A DNA stretch of 64,000 nt from Lysinibacillus agricola. GTDB taxonomy: Bacteria > Bacillota > Bacilli > Bacillales_A > Planococcaceae. The notes beneath the pieces are model-generated. The model did no database searches. It was not told the DNA's origin and worked only from the letters and a program-made list of their open reading frames with translations. Made by a program: the position numbers and the translations under genes. The stretch lies in NCBI RefSeq assembly GCF_016638705.1, contig NZ_CP067341.1, forward strand, positions 871,501 to 935,500, in the 5' to 3' direction. Positions 15,217 through 53,900 of this stretch are shown here, piece after piece (position 1 is the stretch's first letter; every line of letters begins with the position of its first letter).

Positions 15217-15811
15217 TTGACTGTACCGAATAAATCCAAGGAAAATGCCAAATTAGATATAAAATCTATCGTGGAACAAGTTCAAACAGGTGATATTCAA
15301 GCCTATACAGAAATAATTCGTTGTTTTCAAAAGCCAATCTATATTTACTGCTACTATCTTTTAGGAAGCAAAGAAGAAGCTGAGGATGCTTCACAAGATA
15401 TTTTTATAAAGGGATTAGAGAATATTAATAATTTTTCTTATACTGTTTCTTTCTCTGCATGGCTTTATAAAAATTGCTCATCATCACTGTATTGATTTAA
15501 TTAAAAAGAAAAATAAAGGCTATAAATTTTGGACAAGTTTTAAGAAAGATCATGCGAACGATCACACGCATGAACAAGAATTTCAATACGGCGATATCAT
15601 TCATGAGTTATTAGAACAGTTAAATGTGGATGAAAGAAGGATTCTGCTACTTCGATCGATAGAGGAATATAGCTTCGACGAAATCGCTTCTATTATGGAA
15701 CTTAAACCAACGACTGTTCGAAAAAAATATGAACGATTACGTAAAAAATTGATGAAAAAGAATAAGTTAGGAGGGGAAATTTATGAACACTCGTTCAAAA
15801 CAGGAGGATAA
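15217..15811 (+). pseudogene. ECF RNA polymerase sigma factor, frameshifted
   Basis: Two frames together encode one sigma-70 family ECF protein. Residues from TTG 15217 give region 2 (AYTEIIRCFQKPIYIYCYYLLG, EEAEDASQDIFIKGL, FSAWLYK), then the frame breaks into a stop at 15493. From the five-A run at 15469-15473, the +1-shifted frame continues as IAHHHCIDLIKKK, and on to region 4 (ERRILLLRSIEEYSFDEIASIM, TTVRKKYERLRKKL). Removing one A restores the full gene of about 198 residues. The break is either a real inactivation or a homopolymer sequencing error. The gene overlaps its anti-sigma partner by 29 bases, and AGAAAGGAGGGG precedes the TTG. Confidence 0.75.
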
Positions 15812-16921
15812 AGAGTTAGATCAGTTAGAAAGATTCATTCGAGAAACCCCTATGGAAATTGATTTAGTTAATCGTACAATGAACAAATATGAAAGCAGTC
15901 GTTATACAAAGCAGCCAGAAAGTTCTAGAACCTCTAAGAAAATACGTCAAAGAGTGATAATGATAGCGGCTTCCACAGCAATGATTTTTAGTCTAATATT
16001 GGTCACTAGCTTAGTGTCACCAACTTTGGCTGCAACGATAAAGCAAGTACCCGTACTATCATCTATTTTTAAACTTGCGGGTGATCTTGGTCTGCAAACT
16101 GCTGATGAAAAAGGGCTCTCAACGAAACTGAATACAAGTGCTACACATGATGATTTTACATTAAATGTATCGGAAGTAGTGTATGATGGTACGCGTGTTT
16201 CAATTGCTATTGAACGACTTCATACGGAGGGGGAATTATCAAAAGAAACTTTAATAGATCGTATCAGTAATATTGAATTTTTTATAAATGGTGATCCCCG
16301 TAGTTCTTTTGCTCCGGATCCGGAAAATGCAATGAATGGATTTAATATATACTCAGGTAAAGATAATGATTCTGCCATTATTGAAATTGTAGATGAGAGA
16401 AATCATAGAAGCGTCCTTTTCCCGAACAGTTTGATTTAACATTGAGTACTACAATAACTGGTATACAGGACCCTTTAAAAATCGAAATTCCTGTGAAAAA
16501 TAAAATTGAAGACACTGTAACTTTACAACCTAATGTAAGTCGACAATATGATAATATTCATTTTACTATTGAAAAGATCCAGCTTACTCCTATTACAACC
16601 AATATAACGACAAGACCCATTTTAACAGACAATTCACCTATCGCAGAGCTCGCAATGGGAATAGATGTTGTTGATGAACAAGGGCATAAACTAAAACTAA
16701 TTGGTGGCCTTGGTTCGTATGAGTCAAATGGTAGCGATATGATTATGGATCATCGATATACACCTTTTGAATCCATTCCAAAAACAATAACCCTTAAGCC
16801 TTATATACATCTCTTTAAAGAATATCCAAAAGGTGAATATCAAATGGATGAAAATGGGGAACCAAAGATTCAATATATTCCTGAGCTGGAGGTTACACTA
16901 CCTATTAACTCACAAAAATAA
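15783..16921 (+). pseudogene. Anti-sigma factor (DUF4179/DUF5643 type), frameshifted
   Basis: The protein has a cytoplasmic N-terminal part (LDQLERFIRETPMEIDL), a transmembrane helix (about residues 58-78, VIMIAASTAMIFSLILVTSL) and an extracellular domain typical of DUF4179 (GLQTADEKGLSTKLNTSATHD, VVYDGTRVSIAIE). The frame stops at 16437. A second frame from about 16418 carries the rest (FDLTLSTTITGIQDPLKIEIPV and a DUF5643-like end). One extra T in the CTTTTCCC run near 16417-16423 would join them as FPEQFDLTL. This protein normally holds the upstream sigma factor inactive, so both members of the pair carry one indel. Confidence 0.72.
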
Positions 16922-16964: not shown

Positions 16965-17284
16965 GGTATTTCAAAATATTTACTTTAAAAGTGTAAATAC
17001 CAAGTGGATCCCCATTAGATTTAAAAGCTTTCACTTGAGCCATCCCTACTCCTTGCGACTAATATACTATTAATTTTAGTTTATAAATAGGAATATTATT
17101 TATAAATATCATTTAAGTATATAAACATCCATTTATTATAATAGAAGTAACTTCAATGAAGATATTGTATTTGATATCTTATTTGACGAGCAGAACCTAG
17201 AAATATTCTCTTTTTTTGTTGAACTATTTTGAAAAAAAGAAAAATATGCTAAACTTAGCATTAAGTGAATAGCAAATGCAGAAT
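16965..17284. other. Promoter region of the cobalamin operon
   Basis: No gene is seen. TTTGAA at 17228-17233 with TAAACT at 17250-17255 (16 bases apart) is a possible SigA promoter just upstream of the riboswitch. The rest is AT-rich without clear structure. Confidence 0.35.
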
Positions 17285-17456
17285 AAAGGTGCTCTTTTAG
17301 GAGCTTAATAGGGAATTCGGTGCAAATCCGAAGCTGTTTCCGCAACTGTAAGTGTAGATGACTACAGAAATTACCACTGTCAAACGAGGAAAAATGCCTC
17401 CAGTAGATGGGAAGGTTCTGAATAGGATACACGAGCCAGGAGACCTACCTTTATTC
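17285..17456 (+). promoter_or_regulatory. Cobalamin (B12) riboswitch
   Basis: Conserved pieces appear in the right order: AAGGTGCTC then AATAGGGAATTCGGTGCAAATCCG (here noted as AATAGGGAA and GGTGCAAATCCG), GCTGTTTCCGCAACTGTAAG, CCACTGTC, GATGGGAAGG, and the B12 box GAGCCAGGAGACCTACC. The RNA binds adenosylcobalamin or a relative and represses the downstream genes. It is followed at about 90 bases by a terminator hairpin, so it probably acts by transcription termination. The downstream operon is therefore B12-responsive. Confidence 0.95.
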
Positions 17457-17547
17457 CATCGTATTAACTCTCTTCGGAAGCTAGGAGAACTTACGGCAAA
17501 TAGATGAACAGGCAAATTGTGTTTTTGTGCCTTTTTCTGTTTTCCTT

Positions 17548-17592
17548 AGATGCTCTCCCTTTTGTTGGAGAAGCATCTTTTTTATTTTTTGA
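17548..17592 (+). terminator. Riboswitch-controlled terminator
   Basis: AGATGCTCTCC pairs (one bulge) with GGAGAAGCATCT followed by TTTTTATTTTTT. It is located between the riboswitch and the first structural gene. It shows that translation starts after it, at 17639, although an in-frame ATG exists at 17504. Confidence 0.85.
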
Positions 17593-17638
17593 GTTAATTG
17601 CAAATATATTCACCTATAACAAGATCAGGAGGAGAGAA

Positions 17639-20596
17639 ATGGACTTTTATAAGAAATGGTTGAATATAGCGATTGTCTTCATCTTATCATTTTCGCTATT
17701 GTCACCTGCTGCTCTAGCAGAAACGCAGCAAATTGAAGCAAGTGATTTAGAAACGATTGAGTTAGAATCTAGCTCTACTATTAATGATCAATCTAATGGT
17801 GAAGAAGTTAGTATATCCCAAAAAAATACAAATATTGCAGACGAAGAAGTAGTAATTGATAGATCATCATTACAAACGGCAATTGATAAGGCTAAACAAG
17901 CCAAATCATCATTTAAAGTCAGTGCTGATGGAAACGATATAGACCCTGTCGATTACTGGGTAACTCAAGCTGCAATAGATGTGTATACAAATGTAATCCT
18001 ATCTGCACAACAACTATTAGCAGATGAACATGCAATTCAAGAAGACATTGATGCGAAAGTATTAGCACTAAATCAGGCCACAGAGGAATTGGATAGTGCG
18101 AAAAAAGATGGTACAAAATCAAATGCTGAACTAACAACTTCGCAGGCTTACAATACTGTTGCTCAATACATGGTAGATAAACTATCCGAACCTAAATTCG
18201 GTTATGAATGGTGGATTATCACATTAGCTCGCGGTGGCTACGAAGTTCCAGCTGGCTATTACGATACTTATTATAAAAATGTCGTTGACTATGTTGTTTC
18301 TAAAGATGGCGTGCTAGATCAACGAAAATATACAGAATACTCACGATTAATTATTGCCCTTACAGCTATTGGTCAGGATCCAACAAATGTTGGTGGTTAT
18401 AACTTAGTTGAAAAACTATCTGATTTCGATAAAGTTGTTTGGCAAGGTGTGAACGGTGCTTATTTCGGGTTAATTGCTCTTAATACTTGGGACTTTGAAC
18501 TATCTGAAACAGCTACTACAACACGTGAAAAACTTATTGAAAGAATTTTAGAAAAGCAATTAGATGATGGTGGTTGGGCTCTATCGGGGACAAAGGCTGA
18601 CCCTGATATGACAGCAATGGCTATCCAATCGCTAGCACCATACTATAAAACGGATTCAAAGGTAAAAGATGCTGTCGACAAAGCACTAACTACTTTAGCT
18701 GATTTACAATTACCAAATGGTGGTTATAAATCATGGGGGTCGGAAAATTCTGAAAGTGCTGCACAAGTTGTCACTGCCCTTACTAGCTTAGGTATCGATG
18801 CGGACAAAGACCCTCGCTTTGATAAAGTTATAGCGAATATTATGACTTATTACAGCACAAAAGAAGGTGGCTTTAAACACGTTTTAAGCGAAACGCAAGC
18901 AAATGGAATGGCTACAGAGCAGGTTGGCTATACATTAGCTGCGTATCATCGTTTGCTTAACGGTCAAACAGCGCTATACGATATGTCAGATACGAAGTCT
19001 AAGGATCCTTCAAACCCTGGAGATGGTGGTAATCCATCTAACCCTGGGGATGGAGGTAATCCTTCGAACCCTGGAGATGGTGGAAATAACAATAATTCCG
19101 GCAACGGCGAAGATAATCCAGGAGGAAATCGTCCAAATGGACATACCACGTTCTCAATCACAATCTCTTCTTCGGAGGTTCCACTAAAAGAAACAAAAGT
19201 TGAGCTTTATCCAGGAGAAACAGTATTCGACGTATTAAAACGTGTAACAAAGCAAAATGGTATTGCATTAAGCTACCGTGAAACACAATATGGTACTTAT
19301 ATCGATGGCATTAATGGTCTTTATGAATTTGATCGTGGTCCATTAAGTGGTTGGATGTATCGTGTAAATGGTTCTTTCCCTTCTTACTCTGCAGCACTTT
19401 ACACATTATCACCTGGTGATAATGTTGAATGGCTATATACGCTCGATTTAGGTAAAGATGTCGGTGGGTACGTTGATGGAATTGAAGGTGGTGGCTCTTC
19501 AGCTGGAGGAAACAAAGAATGTAAAGAGAAAGATTGTAAAGAAGTAGAAACGAAATGTCCTAACAAAGATGAAAAGTGTGCTGAAGAAACAAACAAAGAT
19601 AATAAAGATGGTTCTATAGCTGAGATTACTATTGAAAATGGTAGTAATAAAGCAATTATTACATCAGAAGATATTCAAAAACATCTTGAAAAGAACATTA
19701 AAAATTTTGTTATTCAAAGTGAAAAGAATTTCAAAATAGAAATACCTACTTCTATATTTAGTGGCATTAAGCTTACTGAAAAAGAACAAGTAAAGGCATC
19801 CGTAACGAAAGATGCTAAAAATAAACAATTCACTGTCACATTCGAAATTGAGAATGCTAATGGTAAATCAAAGTCAATTTCTATAGATAAAGAATATTTA
19901 AAAGTGACATTACCAGCTAACGAATTAAAATCAAATACAGTCGTTTTACAACTTGTTGGTGGCGAATACAAACCTGTTCCACATAAAATTGTGAACGGTG
20001 AAATTGTCCTATTCACAAAAACAAGTGGTACCTTCGTTTTAAAAGAAAGTACAGTAACATATAAGGACATTGAACATTTAGTATACAAAGAAGAAATAGA
20101 ATTTTTGGCGAGTCGACACGTTATTCAAGGAACTACATCAGAGACATTCGAAGCGAATATATCAATTACTCGTGCGCAATTTGCAGCATTAGTTAGTCGC
20201 GCACTTGGTTTACAAGCAACAGGTGAAAATCCATTTGACGATACAAAAGGCAAATGGTATGCGACAGAAATTCAAGCTCTGTACGAGGCGGGTATTACAA
20301 AAGGTTCAACTGCTTCAACATTTAACCCAGAGAAACCAATTACACGTCAGCAAGCGGCTGCATTGATGGCACGCATTTTAGAATATTTAAATGCGGATGT
20401 GAAAGCTGGTGGAGAGATTAACTTTAAGGACGCTAACAATATTAGCTCTGAATACCTCCCTTATATTAAGCTATTAAATAGTCTTGATATTATGACAGGT
20501 ATGCAAGATGGTTCCTTTGATCCTACTTCTTCAATTACTCGTGGGCAAACTGCGAAAATTTTAAAACGTACGTTAAATATCTCAGGCATCATGTAA
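17639..20596 (+). CDS. SLH-anchored surface protein with transcobalamin-like alpha domain and DUF4430
   Basis: A 985-residue exported protein. Residues 1-27 are a signal peptide (ending ALA). Residues 80-162 resemble a FIVAR helical domain. Residues 165-450 form an alpha/alpha-barrel of prenyltransferase/squalene-oxidase type (LSDFDKVVWQG, DDGGWALSG, PDMTAMAIQSL, NGMATEQVGYTLAAY). There is a 3x9-residue NPSNPGDGG linker, DUF4430 at about 500-611 (PGETVFDVLKRV, YEFDRGPLSGWMYRVNG), four Cys at about 626-650, a beta-rich region, and three SLH repeats from about 808. Barrel plus DUF4430 is the architecture of intrinsic factor and transcobalamin. With the B12 riboswitch in front, it is probably a wall-bound cobalamin binder. 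AGGAGG precedes ATG 17639. Confidence 0.82.
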   Translation: MDFYKKWLNIAIVFILSFSLLSPAALAETQQIEASDLETIELESSSTINDQSNGEEVSISQKNTNIADEEVVIDRSSLQTAIDKAKQAKSSFKVSADGNDIDPVDYWVTQAAIDVYTNVILSAQQLLADEHAIQEDIDAKVLALNQATEELDSAKKDGTKSNAELTTSQAYNTVAQYMVDKLSEPKFGYEWWIITLARGGYEVPAGYYDTYYKNVVDYVVSKDGVLDQRKYTEYSRLIIALTAIGQDPTNVGGYNLVEKLSDFDKVVWQGVNGAYFGLIALNTWDFELSETATTTREKLIERILEKQLDDGGWALSGTKADPDMTAMAIQSLAPYYKTDSKVKDAVDKALTTLADLQLPNGGYKSWGSENSESAAQVVTALTSLGIDADKDPRFDKVIANIMTYYSTKEGGFKHVLSETQANGMATEQVGYTLAAYHRLLNGQTALYDMSDTKSKDPSNPGDGGNPSNPGDGGNPSNPGDGGNNNNSGNGEDNPGGNRPNGHTTFSITISSSEVPLKETKVELYPGETVFDVLKRVTKQNGIALSYRETQYGTYIDGINGLYEFDRGPLSGWMYRVNGSFPSYSAALYTLSPGDNVEWLYTLDLGKDVGGYVDGIEGGGSSAGGNKECKEKDCKEVETKCPNKDEKCAEETNKDNKDGSIAEITIENGSNKAIITSEDIQKHLEKNIKNFVIQSEKNFKIEIPTSIFSGIKLTEKEQVKASVTKDAKNKQFTVTFEIENANGKSKSISIDKEYLKVTLPANELKSNTVVLQLVGGEYKPVPHKIVNGEIVLFTKTSGTFVLKESTVTYKDIEHLVYKEEIEFLASRHVIQGTTSETFEANISITRAQFAALVSRALGLQATGENPFDDTKGKWYATEIQALYEAGITKGSTASTFNPEKPITRQQAAALMARILEYLNADVKAGGEINFKDANNISSEYLPYIKLLNSLDIMTGMQDGSFDPTSSITRGQTAKILKRTLNISGIM
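19009..19090 (+). repeat. Three 27-bp repeats coding the NPSNPGDGG linker
   Basis: Three successive near-identical copies encode the nine-residue unit NPSNPGDGG between the barrel and DUF4430. The number of copies is likely to vary between strains. Confidence 0.85.
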
Positions 20597-20603
20597 TTTC
20601 TTT

Positions 20604-20645
20604 ACTAACCCAAACGCTCAACGCATTTGGGTTAGTCCCTTTTTA
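20604..20645 (+). terminator. Hairpin between the two SLH genes
   Basis: ACTAACCCAAACGC pairs with GCATTTGGGTTAGT, followed by CCCTTTTTAAAG. The weak U-run suggests partial termination or RNA stability control, letting the first gene be expressed above the rest. Confidence 0.65.
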
Positions 20646-20664
20646 AAGAATGGAGGTTGTTCAA

Positions 20665-22185
20665 ATGAGAAAAAAATTATCGATGTTTATCATAGTACTT
20701 GCTCTGTTACTTTCTACTGTGACTCCGATCTCTGCACAGCAATTATCAACTGTAGATGCTTATCGTACGACCGGTCAATTTATGGTGAATAAAGCACCAA
20801 ACCCTTCTTTTGGCAATGAGTGGTTTATTATTGCACTTGCACGTGGTGAATACAATGTTCCAAAAGGCTATTACGACAAATATTATGAAAATGTCGTGAA
20901 ACATGTACAATCGGTAAAAGGTGAATTACACAATCGTAAATATACAGAATATTCCCGTTTAATCATTGCGCTTACTGCTATCGGAAAAGATCCTACAAAT
21001 GTAGGCGGCTACAATTTAGTCGAAAAATTAAGCGACTTTGACAAAGTAGTATGGCAAGGTCCAAACGGTGCTTTTTTTACATTAATTGCTTTAGATACAT
21101 GGGGCTTCGAGCTACCTAAAACAGCAACAACTACACGCGAAAAGCTTATTAAACACATACTAGCAAAGCAATTGCCTGACGGTGGATGGGATTTAACAGG
21201 AGTAAAGGCAGATCCAGATATGACAGCAATGGCTATTCAAGCTCTTTCAACTTATCAAGATCGGGCAGATGTTAAAGCGTCCATTAATAAAGGTCTTGAT
21301 GTATTGAAAAACTTACAAGGTGCTAATGGTAGTTACCAAAGCTGGGGAACGACAAACTTAGAAAGTGTAGCACAAGTTATTACAGCCCTTGCTAGTTTAA
21401 ATATTGATGCCAACAAAGATCAGCGCTTTAATAAGTTATTTACAAGCTTTTTCACCTTCTATAATGCAAAAGATGGTGGCTTCAAGCATGTATTAACAGA
21501 ACCAGTAGCTAATGGCATGGCAACAGAGCAGGCTTCTTATACATTAGCCGCGTATAATCGACTGCTTGCGGGCAAAACAAAGCTATATGATATGTCTGAT
21601 AAAAAGCCCAATAAACCATCAACACCAGCTCCCCCTACTAAAGTGAGCTTTAAGGATATTGAATCTCATTGGGCAAAATCTGATATCGAAGCCGCAGTAG
21701 CTAAAGGATTATTAAAGGGCTATGAAGATAATACATTTAGGCCAAATAATAATTTATCCCGTGTACAGGCTGTATCAATTTTAGTTCGCGCTCTTCATTT
21801 AACAGGTTCCGGAAATGCACCGTTCACGGACATTAGTTCATATAACGATGAAACAAAACAAGAAATTGCTGCGGCTTACGAGGCAAATTTATTAATGGTC
21901 AAGTCAAATAAGTTTTCACCTTCCTCTCCTATTTCACGTGAGGAATTAGCAGTGATGCTTGCGAAAGCTTATACACATAAAACAGGCAAGCCATATATTC
22001 CAAAAAATATCGCACCTTTTAATGATATTGCAAAGTTATCAAAGGAATCTCAACAAGCAATTACATTCTTATATGATTTTGAAATTGCACAGGGCGCAAA
22101 CGGCTCGTTTAATCCAACTCATTTTATTACACGTGCACATGCAGCTAAAATGTATGTTAATTTTTTAAAGGTAGTTGAGGAATAA
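20665..22185 (+). CDS. SLH-anchored surface protein with transcobalamin-like alpha domain only
   Basis: A 506-residue exported protein. The signal peptide ends at about 24 (TPISA). The barrel domain, about 25-310, is nearly identical in places to that of the upstream gene (LIIALTAIG, DPTNVGGYNLVEKLSDFD, PDMTAMAIQ, VANGMATEQ), indicating a duplication. Three SLH repeats follow directly (from about 327, VSFKDIESHWAKSDIEAAVA). It lacks DUF4430, which the next gene supplies as a lipoprotein, so the two products could form a split transcobalamin-like receptor. GGAGG sits 8-9 bases before ATG 20665. An in-frame ATG at 20650 would precede the ribosome site. Confidence 0.82.
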   Translation: MRKKLSMFIIVLALLLSTVTPISAQQLSTVDAYRTTGQFMVNKAPNPSFGNEWFIIALARGEYNVPKGYYDKYYENVVKHVQSVKGELHNRKYTEYSRLIIALTAIGKDPTNVGGYNLVEKLSDFDKVVWQGPNGAFFTLIALDTWGFELPKTATTTREKLIKHILAKQLPDGGWDLTGVKADPDMTAMAIQALSTYQDRADVKASINKGLDVLKNLQGANGSYQSWGTTNLESVAQVITALASLNIDANKDQRFNKLFTSFFTFYNAKDGGFKHVLTEPVANGMATEQASYTLAAYNRLLAGKTKLYDMSDKKPNKPSTPAPPTKVSFKDIESHWAKSDIEAAVAKGLLKGYEDNTFRPNNNLSRVQAVSILVRALHLTGSGNAPFTDISSYNDETKQEIAAAYEANLLMVKSNKFSPSSPISREELAVMLAKAYTHKTGKPYIPKNIAPFNDIAKLSKESQQAITFLYDFEIAQGANGSFNPTHFITRAHAAKMYVNFLKVVEE

Positions 22186-22186
22186 T

Positions 22187-23065
22187 ATGAAAAAAAGTTT
22201 ATATTTTTTACTAGTATCATTTCTAGCTCTATTTTTAACAGCATGTAATATTCAAACAGTTGAGCAATTCGAGCAGATGGAGGAGCAGGAGCGGAGTGCG
22301 GACGCCCCTCCTTCTTCTGAACAACCTGAAGCTAAAGAACAAACTCCCTCAGTAGAAAATGAGACCGCTGAGGAAAAGCAGAAAGTAGAGGAGCCTGAGT
22401 CAGATGAGAAGATTTCGCCCGAGGGAGAAGAGAGAGCACCTCAGCAAAAAGTAGAAGGGCAAAAAGCACAGCAAGAAACGAAAGAAGTAAAACAACAACC
22501 AAAACAAGAAGCTGAGAAAAGTCAAGAAGTCGCAAAATCATCAAGTACAAAAACTAATCAGTCTACAACAAAGCAAGATGATGATAAACAAAAAGCAAAT
22601 ACTTCAACAACAGAAAAGCAGCGACAGCCAGCACCTAAAAAACGCACTGTTACAATTGCAATTCGTGTTGATACATTACTAAAGCATTGGGATAAGTTAG
22701 ACGCCTCCCTACAAAGTGAGAAATACGTACCTAAGAACGGCATCATTTTAAAGACAACAACATACGAGCTGCTATCAGAGAAGGATACTGTTTGGGATGT
22801 GCTACAGCGTGCAACGAAGGAGCATAAAATTCAAATGGAATATCAAGGAGCCAACGAAAATATTTATAACAGTGTCTATGTAGAGGGTATTAATCATTTA
22901 TATGAATTTAGTGCTGGTGAATTAAGTGGCTGGATGTATAAAGTAAACGGTGTTTATCCGAATTATGGCTGTAGCCAATACGTATTAAAAGATGGCGATG
23001 TCATTGAATGGAACTATACAGTCGATTTAGGGCGCGACTTAGGACATTATTGGGATGGTAACTAA
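22187..23065 (+). CDS. DUF4430 lipoprotein (transcobalamin beta-domain-like)
   Basis: A 292-residue lipoprotein. The lipobox is LFLTAC, with the lipidated Cys at residue 20. Residues 25-145 are a Glu/Lys/Gln-rich disordered spacer that can span the wall. Residues about 150-290 are DUF4430 (DTVWDVLQRATKEH, YVEGINHLYEFSAGELSGWM, YKVNGVYPNYG, GDVIEWNYTVDLG). DUF4430 corresponds to the C-terminal beta-domain of transcobalamin and intrinsic factor. It follows the barrel-only protein by one base and overlaps ecfT by one base. Likely function: membrane-proximal cobalamin-binding subunit handing ligand to the ECF transporter. That is inference. Confidence 0.82.
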   Translation: MKKSLYFLLVSFLALFLTACNIQTVEQFEQMEEQERSADAPPSSEQPEAKEQTPSVENETAEEKQKVEEPESDEKISPEGEERAPQQKVEGQKAQQETKEVKQQPKQEAEKSQEVAKSSSTKTNQSTTKQDDDKQKANTSTTEKQRQPAPKKRTVTIAIRVDTLLKHWDKLDASLQSEKYVPKNGIILKTTTYELLSEKDTVWDVLQRATKEHKIQMEYQGANENIYNSVYVEGINHLYEFSAGELSGWMYKVNGVYPNYGCSQYVLKDGDVIEWNYTVDLGRDLGHYWDGN

Positions 23066-23946
23066 TGAAGGCATTTGAAACATTTCACCCTATCGTACTT
23101 TTTTCTTTTTTTGTCGCGTCTATCGGCTTATCCATGTTTTTTGTGCATCCAGTCTATTTAGCTATTACAATTTTCTCAGCTATAAGTTTAAATCTAGCTT
23201 TACGCAGACAGCTTTTTTTTAAGGACTGGAAGCTATATGTACCTCTGTTTTTCTTAATGGCGATTATTAATCCAATGATTAGCCATAATGGTCAGCTCGT
23301 ATTGCTTTATATAAATGGTAATGCACTTACTGTAGAGGCAATTATGTATGGTATCGCAATAGCCACAATGATTATAGCTATTATGCTATGGTTTAGCTGC
23401 TATAATGACCTGATGACATCAGATAAGTTTATTTATTTGTTTGGAAAAGTGTCGCCAGCATTATCACTAACATTGTCGATTTCATTGCGATTAGTTCCGC
23501 GTTTTAGGCGTCAACTCGCTCAAATTGTACAAGCACAAAAAGTGATTGGGATGGATTACACAGCTGGGTCCCTATGGCATCGTATCAAATGTACAGTGCG
23601 TATTTTATCTATTTTGATTACTTGGGCATTGGATAATGCCATTGAAACGGCGGATTCTATGAAAGCTCGTGGCTATGGTGTCAAAAAGCGAACTGCCTTT
23701 TCTCTTTTTATTTTTGAGCGTCGCGATGGCGCCGTTTTGGCAATGATTATAGTGCTTTTTCTTAGCAATTTAGTGGCAAGTTTTATTGGTACTACAGCAT
23801 TTTATTTTTATCCAACTTTCGGAGAGATTAAATGGGATTCTGTAAGCATTCTATTTTATAGTAGCTATTTTATTCTACTCACTATTCCAGTAGCTATCGA
23901 AATCAGGGGGGCATTAAAGTGGCGATCGTTAAAATCGACAATGTAA
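23065..23946 (+). CDS. ecfT: ECF transporter transmembrane (T) component
   Basis: A 293-residue integral membrane protein with about six hydrophobic segments. It has the family ARG coupling motif in the long cytoplasmic helix: MKARGYGVKKR near residue 205, preceded by SLRLVPRFRRQLAQIVQAQ. The T subunit couples ATP hydrolysis by the A subunits to toppling of the substrate-binding S subunit. Its ATG overlaps the lipoprotein stop by one base, and its end overlaps the next gene by 28 bases, so translation is tightly coupled within the B12-controlled operon. Confidence 0.87.
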   Translation: MKAFETFHPIVLFSFFVASIGLSMFFVHPVYLAITIFSAISLNLALRRQLFFKDWKLYVPLFFLMAIINPMISHNGQLVLLYINGNALTVEAIMYGIAIATMIIAIMLWFSCYNDLMTSDKFIYLFGKVSPALSLTLSISLRLVPRFRRQLAQIVQAQKVIGMDYTAGSLWHRIKCTVRILSILITWALDNAIETADSMKARGYGVKKRTAFSLFIFERRDGAVLAMIIVLFLSNLVASFIGTTAFYFYPTFGEIKWDSVSILFYSSYFILLTIPVAIEIRGALKWRSLKSTM

Positions 23947-25571
23947 GCTTTACTTATCCTAACGAAGAAAATCTTGTATTAAAAAATATTAATTTAGAAA
24001 TTCAGCAAGGCGAATTTATCGTGCTAATAGGACAATCAGGCTGTGGGAAAAGTACCTTGCTGCGCCATTTTAAACGAGAATTGCATCCTCATGGAACAAT
24101 GACGGGTAATATTTTCTATAAAGATTGTGACTTGGAGCAGTTAAAAGCTGAAGTTGCAGCTGCGGACATTGGCTATGTATTTCAAAATCCCGACAACCAA
24201 ATTGTAACAGATAAAGTATGGCATGAGCTTGCTTTTGGACTGGAGAACTTAGGGGTAGATTCACCAACCATTCGCCGTAGAGTAGCTGAAATGGCCAATT
24301 TCTTTGGCATCCAAAAATGGTTTCATCATAAAACAGCCGAGCTTTCTGGTGGTCAAAAGCAGTTATTAAACTTAGCATCCATTATGGTGATGCAGCCAAA
24401 ATTGCTACTACTTGATGAGCCAACATCGCAATTAGATCCAATTGCTGCTTTAGAGTTTATTCAAACATTGCATCGACTAAACAAAGAATTAGGTATTACC
24501 ATAATTTTAATTGAGCATCGACTGGAAGAAGTGTTACCTCTAGCTGATCGCGTACTTATTATGGATGAAGGTAGGATCTTATTGGACGGTTCTCCTAAGG
24601 GAATTTTAAATGGTTTACCAGCAAATCATGCCATGATTACAGCATTACCTGCGGCAACGAAGATTTTCCACTTACTGAACGGTACGGGACCGATCCCTCT
24701 TACTATTCGTGAGGGACAACATTGGCTAAGTAACCAACCATACAGTTTTGCTCCCTTGAATACACTTCCTACAATATCCTCGGTCAATACAGATATTGTA
24801 TTAGAGGCAAAAGATATTGCTTTTCGATACGAAAAAAATGGTATGGATATTGTCCATCATTTTAATTTGCAGGTGAGGGAGCAGGAATTTTTAACGATAA
24901 TAGGTGGAAATGGTACTGGAAAATCTACGGTTCTTTCTATTTTAACGGGGCTACAAAAACCTTACCATGGCAAAATACTCTTATTCAATAAGGCGTTAAA
25001 AAGCTATAGTAATAAACAATTGTACCAACAATATATAACTTTATTACCGCAGGATCCAAAAACATTATTTGTACAAAAAACGGTGCTTCAAGAGCTAGAT
25101 GATATTGCCCATTTACATAAAGTAACAGATGGAAAGGTTCAAGAAACGATTCAATTGTTTAAATTAACCCATTTATCAAATCGGCATCCGTATGATTTAA
25201 GTGGGGGTGAACAGCAGAAGCTAGCACTCGCAAAGCTTTTGTTAATAGAACCTAAAATATTGCTATTAGATGAGCCGACGAAGGGTCTTGATGCACATGC
25301 GAAAGAAGAACTCGCAGACATATTAAAAGATTTACGAACTAAAGGTATGACAATCATTATGGTGACACATGATATTGAATTTTCTGCACAACACAGCAGT
25401 AGATGTGCTCTATTTTTCGACGGAAGTATTGTATCTGAAGGTGAGCCACGAGCATTTTATAGTGGAAATAATTTTTATACAACAGCAGCACATCGAATAT
25501 CAAGAGATATATTGAGCAATGCCATTACTTGTGAGGATGTAGTTACCTTATGCCAAAAAACATTCGTTTAA
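23919..25571 (+). CDS. ECF transporter ATPase, two A domains fused
   Basis: A 550-residue protein with two complete ABC ATPase modules in one chain. The first has Walker A GQSGCGKST, Q-loop FQNPDNQ, signature LSGGQKQ and Walker B KLLLLDEPTSQLDP. The second, from about residue 290, has GGNGTGKST, LPQDPKTLF, LSGGEQQKL and KILLLDEPTKGLDA. General group II ECF systems use two separate A proteins (EcfA1, EcfA2). A fusion next to its own S and T is typical of a dedicated transporter. GTG start after a GGGGGG site. It overlaps ecfT by 28 and the S gene by 22 bases. Confidence 0.88.
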   Translation: MAIVKIDNVSFTYPNEENLVLKNINLEIQQGEFIVLIGQSGCGKSTLLRHFKRELHPHGTMTGNIFYKDCDLEQLKAEVAAADIGYVFQNPDNQIVTDKVWHELAFGLENLGVDSPTIRRRVAEMANFFGIQKWFHHKTAELSGGQKQLLNLASIMVMQPKLLLLDEPTSQLDPIAALEFIQTLHRLNKELGITIILIEHRLEEVLPLADRVLIMDEGRILLDGSPKGILNGLPANHAMITALPAATKIFHLLNGTGPIPLTIREGQHWLSNQPYSFAPLNTLPTISSVNTDIVLEAKDIAFRYEKNGMDIVHHFNLQVREQEFLTIIGGNGTGKSTVLSILTGLQKPYHGKILLFNKALKSYSNKQLYQQYITLLPQDPKTLFVQKTVLQELDDIAHLHKVTDGKVQETIQLFKLTHLSNRHPYDLSGGEQQKLALAKLLLIEPKILLLDEPTKGLDAHAKEELADILKDLRTKGMTIIMVTHDIEFSAQHSSRCALFFDGSIVSEGEPRAFYSGNNFYTTAAHRISRDILSNAITCEDVVTLCQKTFV

Positions 25572-26245
25572 TTATTTCACGCATTGTCATCCTTGTGTTA
25601 ATTCCACTTACTTTATATGCGGGCATTACAATATTTGCTGACCGAAAATATTATTTTATTTCGATTGTCATTATGATTTTAGCGTGTGTGCCGTTCTTCC
25701 TATCATTTGAGCGTAGAAAGCCACAGCCACGGGAAATTTTAATCATAGCAGTGATGTCTGCTATATCAGTGGCGGGGCGTGCCTTATTTATTGTTACACC
25801 TGGCTTTAAGCCTGTGGCAGCTATTACAGCTATTACAGGGTTTTCGCTTGGTGCGGAAGCTGGCTTTTTAACAGGAGCAATTTCTGCATTAGTATCGAAT
25901 ATGTTTTTTGGACAAGGTCCTTGGACACCATTCCAAATGTTTATGTGGGGAATGATTGGTTTTGTTGCTGGTTTGTTAGGTAAAACTGGTATAATGCATA
26001 AAAAAATCCCACTTGTATTATTTGGTATTGTTGCAGGTGTATTCTTTTCATTTGGCATGGATATTTGGGGAACAGTTTCAATGTACGGTGTTTTCAGCTG
26101 GAAAGCATATGCACTGGCATTAACTTCTGCAGTACCTTTTATGATAATCTATGCTGTTTCTAATGTAATTTTTCTACTATTGTTAGCTAAACCAATTAGA
26201 GAAAAACTAGAGAGAATAAAAAATAAATATGGGATTTTACAATAG
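25550..26245 (+). CDS. ECF transporter substrate-binding (S) component, probably for cobalamin
   Basis: A 231-residue membrane protein with about six helices. Visible features are GFKPVAAITAITGFSLGAEA and GQGPWTPFQMFMWG, which I associate with the CbrT-like S components of cobalamin/cobinamide ECF transporters. It is the last gene of the operon behind a B12 riboswitch, which supports a corrinoid substrate. A different tetrapyrrole-like ligand cannot be excluded from sequence alone. It overlaps the ATPase gene by 22 bases and is followed by a terminator about 120 bases on. Confidence 0.78.
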   Translation: MPKNIRLIISRIVILVLIPLTLYAGITIFADRKYYFISIVIMILACVPFFLSFERRKPQPREILIIAVMSAISVAGRALFIVTPGFKPVAAITAITGFSLGAEAGFLTGAISALVSNMFFGQGPWTPFQMFMWGMIGFVAGLLGKTGIMHKKIPLVLFGIVAGVFFSFGMDIWGTVSMYGVFSWKAYALALTSAVPFMIIYAVSNVIFLLLLAKPIREKLERIKNKYGILQ

Positions 26246-26362
26246 ACCTTTGTAGTCAAAAATTGTCTTATTCATTAGCCACAAAGGAGTGAAGAGGAGA
26301 GCCCAGTAAGTAAAACAGATATCTCATTGTTAGAAATAATTATATCAACAGGTAGCTTGTAA

Positions 26363-26396
26363 AAATGAGTTCGGTAATACACCGAACTTATTTTTT
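26363..26396 (+). terminator. Intrinsic terminator of the cobalamin operon
   Basis: AGTTCGGT and ACCGAACT form the stem, flanked by A/T bases and followed by TTTTTT. Confidence 0.75.
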
Positions 26397-47921: not shown

Positions 47922-50900
47922 TTGGTACAAAAAATACCCGAAAAGCCAACGGAAGTGACATGGACTGACGACCAGTGGAAGGCAATTTATGCAAGCGGCC
48001 AGGATACACTTGTATCGGCTGCGGCAGGCTCTGGTAAAACGGCAGTTCTCATTAATCGCATGATTGAAAAGGTAGTTGCAAAAGAGAATCCAATCAATGT
48101 CGACGAGTTACTTGTCGTAACATTTACAAATGCATCCGCTGCTGAGATGCGTCATCGTATGGCAGAGGCACTTGAAAAGGCTATTGCAGAAAATCCAACT
48201 TCCAATCATTTAAGACGTCAGTTAAGCCTTGTCAATAAAGCACAAATTTCAACACTGCATTCTTTCTGCTTAGCTATTGTGAAGCAGTATGCCTATATGC
48301 TAGATATTGATCCAGGCTTTCGTATAGCAAATGAGGCAGAGGTTGCTTTGTTAAGGGACGATATATTAGCAGAAGTATTAGAAGATGCTTACGATTCTGA
48401 GGATGAGGCACAGATTCAAGCAATCTATCGTCTTGTTGATAGCTTTACATCGGATCGTGATGATCAGGCGATAGAAACCTTAATAAGCAAGCTTTATGAT
48501 ACATCCCGCGTTCATACAGAGCCTCAAAAATGGCTTCGTAGTCTACCAGAGACATATGACTTAGCTGCAGACGTGACAATTGATGATTTAGAGCTGTCGA
48601 AATATGTGAAATTAACAGTCAAGCATAGTCTTGACGAGGCTTTCGTTTTAATTTCTGAAATGCGAGCCATTACGCTACAGCCTGAGGGACCTGCACCATA
48701 TGCTGAAACAGCAGAGATTGATTTTGCCATGATTCAAGAAGGCATTCGCATTAGTCGTGAAGGAACGTGGCAGGAACTCTTTGATTATTTCGCAACTGTG
48801 AAATGGTCAACTTTAAAGCGTGTATCAAAGGATGCTTTAGTGGATGTGGAGCTACAGGAGCTTGCCAAGAAAAAACGTGAGGCAGCTAAAAAAATTGTCA
48901 ACAAACTTAAAGAGACCTATTTTGTTCGGACTCCTGCACGCTTGCTTGAAGAAATTCGCTTAATGGGTCCGACGATAGGAACATTAGTCGAATTGACAAA
49001 TGTTTTTAGTGAGAGGTTCCGCATGGCAAAATTAGAACGAGGAATTATTGATTTCTCGGATCTAGAGCATTTCGCATTGCAAATTTTAACGGTAGAAGTC
49101 GAAGGTGAATTACAACCTTCACCTATTGCACTAGATTTGAAACAGCGTTTTAAAGAAGTACTTGTTGACGAATACCAAGATAGTGCGACACGTTGCTAAT
49201 TGAAAAGATTAGCCACTAGCATATTTGCTAGGAGAACTAAGAAATCAGATGAGTCGAATGATGAGGTAACGCTCTGAAAGGCTCGACCTAATCCTCCGAA
49301 TAGCATCAGCATAGGCAATTATGATGGTGTTATAAGCTCGGTGAAGTCAGCTGAATATTACCCTAATCGAAAGAAGGAAAGCGAGATAGAGGTATCTTGT
49401 GTGGTAGATAGGCTGGGGTTCTATAAGAGAATCTATGGTTAGAATTTAGGTTAAACAACAATCTAATGACGAAATTCCGAATGTACGGCTCTAGAGGTAT
49501 AGCCATTCGAAAGGGTGGTCCGCCACGCGCGGGTTAGTGAGGTGGAGTAAGAATTGTCTTTATGAAACACCTTATGATGTTATAGGCATCATCCAGCTAA
49601 CAGGGCTAGAGGAATGACCTAAGGATTCTGTATGAAAAGATATGGTTCTTGGAACGTGGGAAGCTGACTACGTGGAGAGATTGTACTCGACGAAACGGTA
49701 CGAGGGAAAACGAATTCATCGTATAACCTTGTTTTAAGTTAGTGAAAGTGATGGCACAGTACCTAGGAAGCCGTGATAATAAGCGGTGGAGGGATAGCCA
49801 TTAGTTAGTTAATTGAACACTCATACTATATTTCATGATTTTCAGGTTCGAGTAGGACTAAGAGAAATGGAATCACTGAACAATCTCTTGATTGATAAAG
49901 GTGAGTACATTGACTGAAACGGTTAACGCCAATAAGGGATTAGGCTTTACGGAAATGAAATAATAGGATGAAGAGCAATTAATTGATGGAACGCCGTATG
50001 AGGGGAAACCCTCACGTACGGTGTGAATGGGGGAAAAAGCTAGAGATTACTTCAAAGGCTTACCTATCCATATCAAATATGCTGCAAGAAACAATATTAC
50101 AGCTTGTGAAAACAGGTAGTGAGCAAGAGGGAAATCTCTTTATGGTTGGGGACGTAAAACAAAGTATTGTGCGCCCATAAGGGTATTGTATATTTCACCA
50201 TTTGGCGGTGAATAAACTATAGAAACGGTTTATATATCAACCGACTTATCTTGATGGGAAACCAAAGAGGGAGTGTAGCATGTCGGTTAAAGTCATAAGT
50301 TAGCCTAAACGGAAAGGCTACGACTGAATGGCAAGATATAAAAGATTCATATAAGGAAGAAGGCTAAACTGCTTGAAGAATAGTCCGAGTGGGGTCATGC
50401 TTAACCATCTAGGAAACCGTTTGAAACCTAGAATCTATTCTGTTCAGCGTATTAGATGCTTGCGACTGAACATGGGAACGTGTACTAGATTGATGCACAA
50501 TCCCAGTTTCTGATTGACGAAAGAATAGACACACTTCAAGATTGAAGAAAAGGATGAACGTTCCTTCCGACAATGAATCAAGCCTGTATACAATATACTA
50601 AATGGGGATTACCTAAGTTGGAGTGCCACAAGGCTATGTACACGGGTACTGAAAATCCAATATGGTAACGGAGCTCTCGTAGTAGTCGGAGATAGGGAAA
50701 GCCTATTACATGGCGAAGGAGAGCAGCTTATAACGTATAAACAATGAGGAAAGGAGCGAAATGCTCTATGCAAAGTTCAGAAATTGTCTTATACAATCTA
50801 TCGAAACAAGCAATGAAAGACGGATATACATTTGACCGTCTATACAGACATTTATACAATGAAGATTTTTATATAAAAGCCTATACGAAGATATACAAAA

Positions 50901-53900
50901 ATAAAGGTAGTGCAACAAAAGGTATTGATGGAGAAACAGCGGATGGATTCGGGGAAGAAAAAATTCAAGCAATCGTTGATACGTTGAAAAATGAAAGCTA
51001 TCAACCGAAGCCAGTTCGTCGTATTCATATCCCAAAGAAAAATGGTGGTACACGACCACTTGGTATCCCTACGTTTACAGACCGTATTGTACAAGAAGTT
51101 TGTCGTATGATATTAGAAGCCATTTATGAGCCTAAATTTTCAAATCATTCGCATGGTTTCAGACCAAAAAGAAGTTGTCATACAGCATTAATCGAAATGA
51201 AGAAAACCTTTACAGGGGTAAATTGGTTCATTGAAGGCGATATAAAAGGATTTTTCGATAACATCAATCATCAAATTTTAATTACTATTTTAAGAAAACG
51301 TATCAAAGATGAAAAATTCATTCGTTTAATGTGGAAGTTCTTAAAAGCAGGATTCGTTGAAAATTGGCGATTCCAAAAGACGTATAGTGGAACTCCACAG
51401 GGCGGAATTATTAGTCCGTTACTAGCGAATATTTATTTAAATGAATTTGATGATTATATTGAAAAAGAATTAAAGCCTTCTTTTGATTTAGGTGAACCAA
51501 AAAAACGTAAACGTAATACTGAATATCGAAAATATGATATGCGTAACCAACGTTTGCATAAAAAAATTAATGCAACAGAAGATGAAGTTTTGCGAAAAGA
51601 AATGATTGAAGAATATAAGGCGAATAAGAAAATTTTGCTTAATTTACCGTACTATGAGTCGAACACGGACACATATAAAGCAATAAAATATGTACGTTAT
51701 GCAGATGATTTTATTGTTGGCGTCAATGGTAGTAAAGAAGATTGTGAAATGCTTAAGCAAACAATGAAAGACTTTCTACAAAATTATTTACAACTTGAAT
51801 TGTCAGAAGATAAGACGCTCATTACGCATAGTACAAAGTTTGCGAACTTTTTAAGCTACGATATATCAATTAGCCATGATTTAAGTACGGCAAAAGATAA
51901 AAACGGTGTTATTAAACGTAAATATAGAGAATATGTACAATTACGAATACCTAAAGGAACAATTGAAAAAGTAATCGTAAAAAATAAAATGGTCAAAGAC
52001 ATTGATGCGAAACAATGGGATATGTTGCATCGAACAAGATTAGTTGGACTTTCTGATTTAGAAATCATCGAAACGTATAACGCAGAGCTACGTGGTTTAT
52101 ATAATTATTATGCTCTAGCGGAAAATGTAAACCAAAAAATGTGGCAATTACGTTATGTAATGGAATATAGCTGTTTAAAAACACTTGCAAATAAATACAA
52201 ATCCTCAGTAGCAAAAATGAAGGTTAAGTTTAAACAAGGTAAGTATTGGGGAGTAAAATACGAAACAAAACAAGGTGAAAGAATAGCATATTTCTATAAA
52301 GATGGTTTTGAAAAAGGAAAAGAAAGCGTCAAAGCAACAATAGATGAACTACCTAATCTTTATGTATATCAAGGCAGAAATGATGTAGAAAAACGACTAA
52401 GTGCAAGACAATGTGAATTATGTGGAGACAATCATCCCGATACAAAATTCGAAATTCATCACATAAATAAAGTGAAGAATTTAAAGGGAAAAGAATATTG
52501 GGAATGGACAATGCTCGCTAAGCAAAGAAAAACGCTAGTCGTGTGTGATAAATGTCATAAAGAAATTCATAAACAACGATAGATTTGTTATAAGTGGAGA
52601 GCCGTATACTCTGAGAGGAGTACGTACGGTTCGGGGAGGGGTTCACTGGAAACCTACTACAGAAATGTAGCAAGGCGCTGGGTTCCTACTCTACTACCGT
52701 TTTCGTTTAGCAGAACCAAAGCTCTTTATGCGAAAGTATAGCGAGTTTCTAGAGATCCCAGATTTGACAGGAATGCGAATCGATTTAAACGCTAATTTCC
52801 GTAGTCGGAAAGAAGTGTTGAACGCTACAAACTATGTATTTGCACAAATTATGGGTGAGCGCGTTGGAGAAATTCTCTATGATGAAAATGCTTCATTAAA
52901 GCCAGCAGCTCCGTATAATGACGGAGAAGTTCCAGTAGAGCTAGTCATCATGCATCCTCCTGGAGAAGAAGCGCTGGACGAAGAGGCAGAAGATATTGCT
53001 AGTGAAGCCTCTGAACTAGAGGAATTAAAAAAATCACAGTATGAGGCACGTTTTATCATTGAGCGTATTCGGCAGATGATGGAGGATGGGACAACCGTAT
53101 TTGATACAAAAACGAAGACAGAACGTCCTTTAAAATATAGTGATATAGTGATCTTAATGCGTTCAATGACATGGTCAACAGATTTAGTGGAGGAATTTAA
53201 GCTTGCGGGAATTCCTCTTTATGCGGAGTCCTCCAAAGGATATTTCGATGCGCTTGAGGTCATGATTATGCTGAACGTACTGAAGGTTGTCGATAATCCA
53301 TATCAGGATATTCCTTTGGCATCAGTGCTACGCGCTCCATTTGTTGGCTTAACAGAAAATGAGCTAGCAAAAATACGGCTAGCAGATTCAAAAGCGCCGT
53401 TTTATGATGCATTAAGGCAATTTATTCGAAGTGATGGGCATGGTGTACAGACTGACACTTTTGTGAAGCTTCAACGTTTTATGCTGGCATTTGAAAACTG
53501 GCGGGATTTAGCGCGCCGTGGTTCATTGTCAGATTTAATTTGGAAAATTTACTTAGACACGCATTATTACGAGATGGTTGGAGCGATGCCAAATGGCAAG
53601 CAGCGTCAGGCCAATTTACGTGTTTTACACGATCGGGCATTAATGTATGAGAAAACAGCCTTTCGAGGACTGTTTTCGTTTTTACGCTTTATTGACCGTA
53701 TGCGTACGCGTGGTGATGATTTAGGAACGGCCAAATCAATTGGAGAAAAGGATGATGTCGTGCGTCTTGTAACCATCCACTCTTCAAAAGGTTTGGAATA
53801 TCCTGTTGTCTTTGTCGCAGGGATGGGGCGACCGTTTAATAAAATGGATTTCCACAATCCATATTTATTCGATCAAGATTTTGGCCTTGCAGTGAAGGCG

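Follow-up and report, generated by a model that had tools for sequence, protein, structure and literature searches.

Where would a corrinoid such as vitamin B12 be caught outside a Gram-positive cell, and how would it reach the importer in the membrane? These questions are raised by six adjoining genes (ORF1 to ORF6) behind a cobalamin riboswitch in Lysinibacillus agricola (Planococcaceae), which we analysed within a 64,000-nucleotide stretch of its genome (the window; contig NZ_CP067341.1 of assembly GCF_016638705.1, positions 871,501 to 935,500, forward strand). Our results indicate that the genes probably form a riboswitch-repressed cassette for the capture and import of corrinoids (B12 or cobinamide), in which ORF1 would be a binder on one chain, ORF2 and ORF3 a binder split over two chains, and ORF4 to ORF6 an importer of the energy-coupling factor (ECF) type. 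Uptake of B12 by Gram-positive bacteria is poorly known, and a 2019 survey of gut genomes noted that, for many of them, identifying what transports B12 and its precursors is an open problem (PMC6593275; here as below, published work is cited from the available parts of its text).

Surface proteins with transcobalamin-like domains

ORF1 and ORF2 both carry an alpha/alpha toroid and three SLH repeats (whole-protein E-values in Pfam of 2.8e-32 and 2.4e-31), and their toroids are 66% identical over 301 columns. Pfam scored the toroids weakly as Prenyltrans, with 25.0 bits for ORF1 (below the cut-off of 26.5) and 29.3 bits for ORF2 (above it). DUF4430 (PF14478; cut-off 23.8 bits) was matched in ORF1 (69.8 bits) and in the lipoprotein ORF3 (68.3 bits), where it follows a long, low-complexity linker; the two copies share 51% identity over 104 columns and are the only two DUF4430 matches of the genome. 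ORF1 alone therefore holds both transcobalamin domains. Lipobox and membrane-segment calls, here and below, come from simple patterns and hydropathy rather than from SignalP or TMHMM.

In structure models, residues 195-611 of ORF1 matched transcobalamin, intrinsic factor, and haptocorrin across both domains, and its first 15 Foldseek matches showed an N-terminal toroid followed by a beta domain, as in the two-domain cobalamin carriers. Residues 150-292 of ORF3 matched the transcobalamin beta domain (VIA-align, which takes the top 1000 of Foldseek), and the toroid and beta domain of ORF2 and ORF3 occur in that order only as two chains. B12 carriers rank first among the fold matches, although structural alignments with the human carriers gave only 13-21% identity. 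The human carriers differ from ORF1, ORF2, and ORF3 in that the latter are anchored to the S-layer or the membrane, with ORF2 and ORF3 on separate chains.

The kinship depends on structure, as we dropped an attempt to tie the domains to transcobalamin by sequence. The animal cobalamin-binding family PF01122 was not matched by ORF1 or ORF2 at E<=0.01 in Pfam, nor was it among the first 25 of 47 families for the 12 chains (profile A5) in which relatives fuse both domains. Against the PDB, the A5 profile returned squalene-hopene cyclases and no transcobalamin, and a profile of ORF3 relatives (A3) returned no transcobalamin and mostly matches to the linker. One relative (P0223) does carry PF01122 in its precomputed annotation. 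Another S-layer-family protein (P0192) bears the source label Phytophthora fragariae, which probably reflects bacterial contamination of that assembly.

Table 1 Features of the candidate corrinoid cassette (window coordinates)
Feature	Position	Strand	Details
Cobalamin riboswitch aptamer	17270..17466	+	RF00174, 106.4 bits, E 1.2e-25
Expression platform: terminator-like hairpin (17548-17578) and T-run between aptamer and ORF1	17548..17590	+	
ORF1, 985 aa	17639..20596	+	signal peptide (by eye), alpha/alpha toroid, DUF4430 beta domain, three SLH repeats
Terminator-like hairpin in the ORF1-ORF2 gap	20604..20636	+	-17.9 kcal/mol, z -4.9
ORF2, 506 aa	20665..22185	+	signal peptide (by eye), toroid and three SLH repeats; DUF4430 not matched
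ORF3, 292 aa	22187..23065	+	lipoprotein (lipobox LTAC), juxtamembrane NIQTVEQ, long linker, DUF4430
ORF4, EcfT (CbiQ family)	23065..23946	+	PF02361, 29.7 bits (cut-off 25)
ORF5, fused EcfA-EcfA' ATPase	23919..25571	+	two ABC_tran stretches; TIGR04520/04521 above cut-off
ORF6, CbrT-like S component	25550..26245	+	6FNP_A CbrT match
Terminator-like hairpin and T-run at operon end	26361..26395	+	-17.2 kcal/mol, z -6.2

The aptamer lies ahead of the gene set and scores above the gathering threshold of its Rfam model (31.5 bits). The hairpin that follows it (-14.9 kcal/mol, z -4.1; none of 200 shuffles was as stable) is likely a transcription terminator, and ORF1, although listed from 17504, therefore probably starts at 17639, behind AGGAGGAG. 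ORF2 to ORF6 are closely packed (one base between ORF2 and ORF3, and overlaps of 1, 28, and 22 bases at the next three junctions), and the set closes after its sixth gene at a strong hairpin. ORF1 and ORF2 are 68 bases apart; because of this gap and the terminator-like hairpin before ORF2, the S-layer binder may be set at a higher level than the transporter, with ORF1 made in excess.

The original prediction for this locus, made from the sequence alone, had described a riboswitch-led, overlapping operon with two S-layer-anchored barrel proteins, a DUF4430 lipoprotein, and a full ECF transporter (T, fused A-A, S). Our analysis bears out the riboswitch, the lipoprotein, and the transporter, as well as the expected structural match of barrel and DUF4430 to transcobalamin and intrinsic factor, as far as models can tell. 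The overlap holds for ORF2 to ORF6 and not for the junction of ORF1 with ORF2, and both barrel proteins have the predicted toroid and anchor, with the DUF4430 domain of ORF1 overlooked.

Linkage across relatives and the division of the binder

Relatives of the S component are common (at least 558 confirmed among at least 594 pattern matches on genome contigs); the nearest named ones come from Lysinibacillus and close kin. We chose 80 loci by the S component alone, as the best 80 of the at least 558 confirmed, and these include Bacilli and Clostridia, gut Lachnospiraceae among them. EcfT lies within 3.5 kb upstream of S in 75 of them. The five others were left out of the count: three are near a contig end (L069, L081, L087), while L071 and L082 are not and look solitary, with neither toroid nor DUF4430. 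Both domains were sought with hidden Markov models (HMMs) built from the window proteins and database homologues, and a toroid was counted when it lay at most 4 kb ahead of EcfT or 3 kb past S.

A toroid gene in range accompanies a small DUF4430 gene abutting EcfT in 54 of the 75 loci (split form; including L042, L088, and L089, whose toroid chain additionally bears DUF4430). In 12 loci, a single toroid-DUF4430 chain occurs with no separate small gene; in L067, L077, and L095 this fused gene comes after S, and a further DUF4430 gene stands farther upstream in L055, L061, L070, L074, L097, and L099. Four loci have the small DUF4430 gene and no toroid in range (L051, L072, L078, L090), with the toroid just beyond the counting range in the last two; one (L075) has a DUF4430 gene downstream only, and the four with neither offer just 1 to 902 bases upstream of EcfT. 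All 123 DUF4430 and 85 toroid ORFs found are on the cassette strand. Two copies of the cassette apparently stand in tandem in L043 (Anaerovorax sp. IOR16); matches to the cobalamin riboswitch fall at 645 and 1128, before the first copy, and at 15855, within the second.

The coupling also holds by presence and absence. Among 151 genomes of the same family, DUF4430 occurred in 42, the S component in 43, and both in 42; in the lone S-bearing genome without DUF4430 (G080), the contig ends 2.9 kb upstream of S. For 35 of the 43 S genes, DUF4430 lies on the same strand at 2.5-2.7 kb upstream, a distance equal to the length of EcfT plus EcfA-A; in six the distance is 4.5-5.2 kb, and in two there is none on the same contig (distances were taken from most, not all, DUF4430 matches). 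Within the genus, the S component of the cassette has a patchy distribution, being present in 9 of 32 genomes.

How the two halves are anchored varies between lineages. A toroid-SLH chain was present in 10 of the 80 loci, and the small DUF4430 protein usually has a lipobox in the Lysinibacillus-Kurthia group; in the Viridibacillus/Kurthia-type toroids inspected (L030, L032), no anchor was identified. Outside that group, five of six inspected split-type toroid proteins end in a membrane-like segment (L046, L048, L053, L063, L076; L073 is the exception), and one stands at the start of the small DUF4430 proteins inspected. All 12 fused chains run from toroid through two successive membrane-like segments to the beta domain, an order that looks as if two anchored proteins had been linked in series. 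A single origin of these fusions was rejected: a careful S-component tree gave five changes between split and fused forms, four of them forced by supported branches, with gain and loss indistinguishable, the long-branched L076 omitted, and 14 loci without a clear state uncounted. A quick tree forced two changes. By the classical gene-fusion argument, this repeated, equivalent joining suggests that ORF2 and ORF3 act together. It would be consistent with human transcobalamin, of which the separately produced alpha and beta domains associate only with cobalamin (PMC5599065), and which has the same domain order as ORF1 and the 12 fused chains.

It is conceivable that the same parts work with no joint ORF2/ORF3 binder, so that ORF1 captures the ligand, ORF3 alone hands it on to the S component, and ORF2 serves as a decoy or a further store. 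The lone beta domain of human transcobalamin binds both cobalamin and cobinamide (PMC5599065), ORF1 by itself already has both domains, and the four loci with a small DUF4430 gene and no toroid in range (two with a toroid just outside) fit this account. Nonetheless, we regard it as unlikely, considering that the toroid gene is kept with the small DUF4430 gene in 54 of 75 loci, that 12 fuse both domains, and that at least four switches have occurred.

The ligand and the route to the importer

The cassette encodes EcfT and two complete ATPase units, with two Walker A, two signature, and two Walker B motifs in ORF5. ORF6 matched CbrT (6FNP_A) with an E-value of 1.4e-10 by sequence and 1.9e-15 by profile, whereas the next-best solved S component (4HZU) gave 0.091; judged by these matches, CbrT is its only convincing solved relative. 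CbrT transports cobalamin and cobinamide (PMC5997447). Since CbrT alone matches convincingly and carries these corrinoids, riboflavin is probably not the substrate of ORF6, despite its riboflavin-type Pfam label (PF07155). The cobalamin riboswitch agrees with this assignment, and the S component was not found to belong clearly to another ligand, which the original prediction had named as grounds for refuting it.

A cobalamin riboswitch precedes EcfT in 42 of the 75 loci and was not detected in the other 33, as judged by a model built from the 14 of this genome and, for 32 of the 36 EcfT loci that it left unmatched (not L020, L023, L037, L059), an Rfam rescan. The rescan added three upstream cobalamin riboswitches (L058, L094, L097) and one downstream (L090); it also found a lysine-type riboswitch far downstream in L076. 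The loci without a detected riboswitch, together with the PF07155 label and the ligand diversity brought up by a reviewer of Burroughs et al. 2007 (PMC1796856), leave some room for a cassette whose ligand is a different tetrapyrrole, or solely a corrinoid precursor, and which cobalamin just regulates. We consider this improbable, given CbrT as the sole convincing solved relative of the S component and B12 carriers as the first fold matches. A cobalt transporter of the CbiMNQO type is far less probable still: EcfT belongs to the CbiQ family, but no CbiM model matched ORF6 at E<=0.01, and a genuine CbiM is encoded at another place in the genome (L016), next to a different cobalamin riboswitch. 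To our knowledge, there is also no role in cobalt uptake that surface toroids would fit. Extracellular enzymes of the terpene/squalene cyclase type can hardly be meant either, in spite of the squalene-hopene cyclase matches in profile searches and the high fold scores of the toroid alone, as the catalytic DXDD acid motif of class II terpene cyclases was not seen (DPDM in ORF1 and ORF2; DxDxT in 58 of 83 toroid domains, none with D as fourth residue, and no such pattern in the other 25) and the toroids are secreted, wall- or membrane-bound, and paired with a beta-domain partner.

For a corrinoid cassette, the parts suggest that the ligand moves inward from the S-layer to the membrane. ORF1, anchored in the S-layer through its SLH repeats, would capture the corrinoid as a complete one-chain binder and hand it to ORF2 and ORF3. 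These, a toroid in the wall and a lipid-tethered beta domain, would close on the ligand as a split transcobalamin, and closure onto the membrane-held half would draw it beside ORF4 to ORF6, where the CbrT-like S component would take it up and import it. When intracellular cobalamin is abundant, the riboswitch would halt transcription ahead of ORF1. The Gram-positive analogue of transcobalamin originally envisaged (capture at the surface, hand-over by lipoprotein, ECF import) gains from the folds, the CbrT-like S component, and the riboswitch, while the hand-over is a step that we infer.

The segment after the anchor of the beta-domain protein is alike in lipid-anchored, membrane-anchored, and fused forms, which suggests from sequence a contact to the transporter. 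Its pattern occurs in 56 of 58 small DUF4430 proteins and, in a stricter form, in 10 of 12 fusions, but the patterns were composed after inspecting the sequences and are descriptive, not a test. With somewhat less than even confidence, we propose a class of ECF transporters served by an external split transcobalamin, whose halves, anchored in wall and membrane, would join only on a corrinoid and use this juxtamembrane segment (approximately [IVF]Q[ST]-x-[DE]) to dock it on the S component. If this is true, such an ECF transporter would have an external binding protein of its own, and the split bacterial form could be what fused into the one-chain animal carrier; the cassette has a bearing on how animals may have acquired transcobalamin and intrinsic factor.

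Known systems and the B12 supply of the host

The complete arrangement had been thought to be undescribed, but its core was predicted by Burroughs et al. 2007 (PMC1796856), who reported a transcobalamin-like beta-grasp domain that is fused to toroids and secreted or surface-bound in low-GC Gram-positives. The operons that encode it include CbiO and CbiQ and often a second paralogue, and B12 scavenging was the predicted role. The words riboswitch, lipoprotein, and S-layer are absent from that text, and its available parts make no mention of an S component, of alpha and beta domains divided between chains, or of fusions through a membrane hairpin. Compared with these parts, our analysis assigns a CbrT-like S component, shows the riboswitch, and finds that the EcfT-adjoining cassette mostly encodes the alpha and beta domains as two chains, alongside 12 natural membrane-hairpin fusions. 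Among the titles and abstracts listed from literature that includes few subscription journals or bioRxiv preprints, none dealt with experiments on bacterial transcobalamin-like proteins, with a CbrT-type S component in such a cassette, or with the split/fused pattern or the S-layer form. The general idea thus dates from 2007; the division of domains, their fusion, and their travel with an ECF pump were not met in the literature searched. The cassette makes the earlier prediction concrete as two-protein binding plus transport.

ECF-CbrT of Lactobacillus delbrueckii is similar in having T and two A subunits and an S component homologous to ORF6 over 171 residues. It differs in that cbrT lies in nrdJ-cbrS-cbrT-pduO, with an ECF module common to other S components, and the available parts of its account mention no extracellular binder (PMC5997447), whereas the Lysinibacillus cassette co-encodes T-A-A and external binders. 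The Bacteroides surface lipoproteins BtuG and BtuJ likewise catch B12 ahead of transport, but have beta-propeller and jellyroll folds and outer-membrane transporters as partners (PMC6977713, PMC13398666).

Bacteria with the systems described in 2007 usually lack key B12 synthesis enzymes (PMC1796856), whereas this host has corrin-ring synthesis genes. Its genome (G000; a single contig of 5.29 Mb) has 14 cobalamin riboswitches (among them L011-L019 and that of the cassette). Near those examined are cbi synthesis genes, cbiM, a PduO-type adenosyltransferase gene, cobT, a NikA-like transporter gene, and BtuF/BtuC-like genes below model cut-offs, as well as B12-independent isozymes: metE, prpD/prpB with citrate synthase (methylcitrate cycle), and class I ribonucleotide reductase. 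Riboswitches stand before metE, the methylcitrate-cycle genes, the class I ribonucleotide reductase, and the NikA-like gene; by this placement, B12 seems to repress its B12-independent substitutes. NCBIfam matches exceeded a cut-off for CbiD, CbiE/T, CbiH, and CbiJ (CbiC remained under its cut-offs), and the host encodes much of B12 synthesis and seems to import B12 too. Auxotrophy was rejected as an explanation for the cassette, as CbiD occurs in 14 of the 43 S-bearing genomes and in 41 of the 108 others, with no association in the family (Fisher p 0.58).

The sole cobT of the genome (L019:1292-2347; G000:C1:1431021-1432022), behind its own cobalamin riboswitch, contains one in-frame TAA, either a real lesion or a sequencing error; no in-frame stop is seen in the other 28 of the 29 cobT-bearing genomes of the genus. 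If it is not an error, external cobalamin would be more valuable to this strain.

Just 5' of the cassette riboswitch (window 15217-16921), inspection by eye showed a short sigma-70-like ORF of 92 aa and an anti-sigma-like protein that seems to be broken over two frames; the two resemble an interrupted regulator pair. Farther downstream, group II intron RNA matches (one to RF02004, two to RF00029) at 49232-50073 and 52597-52694 of the window possibly represent two introns.
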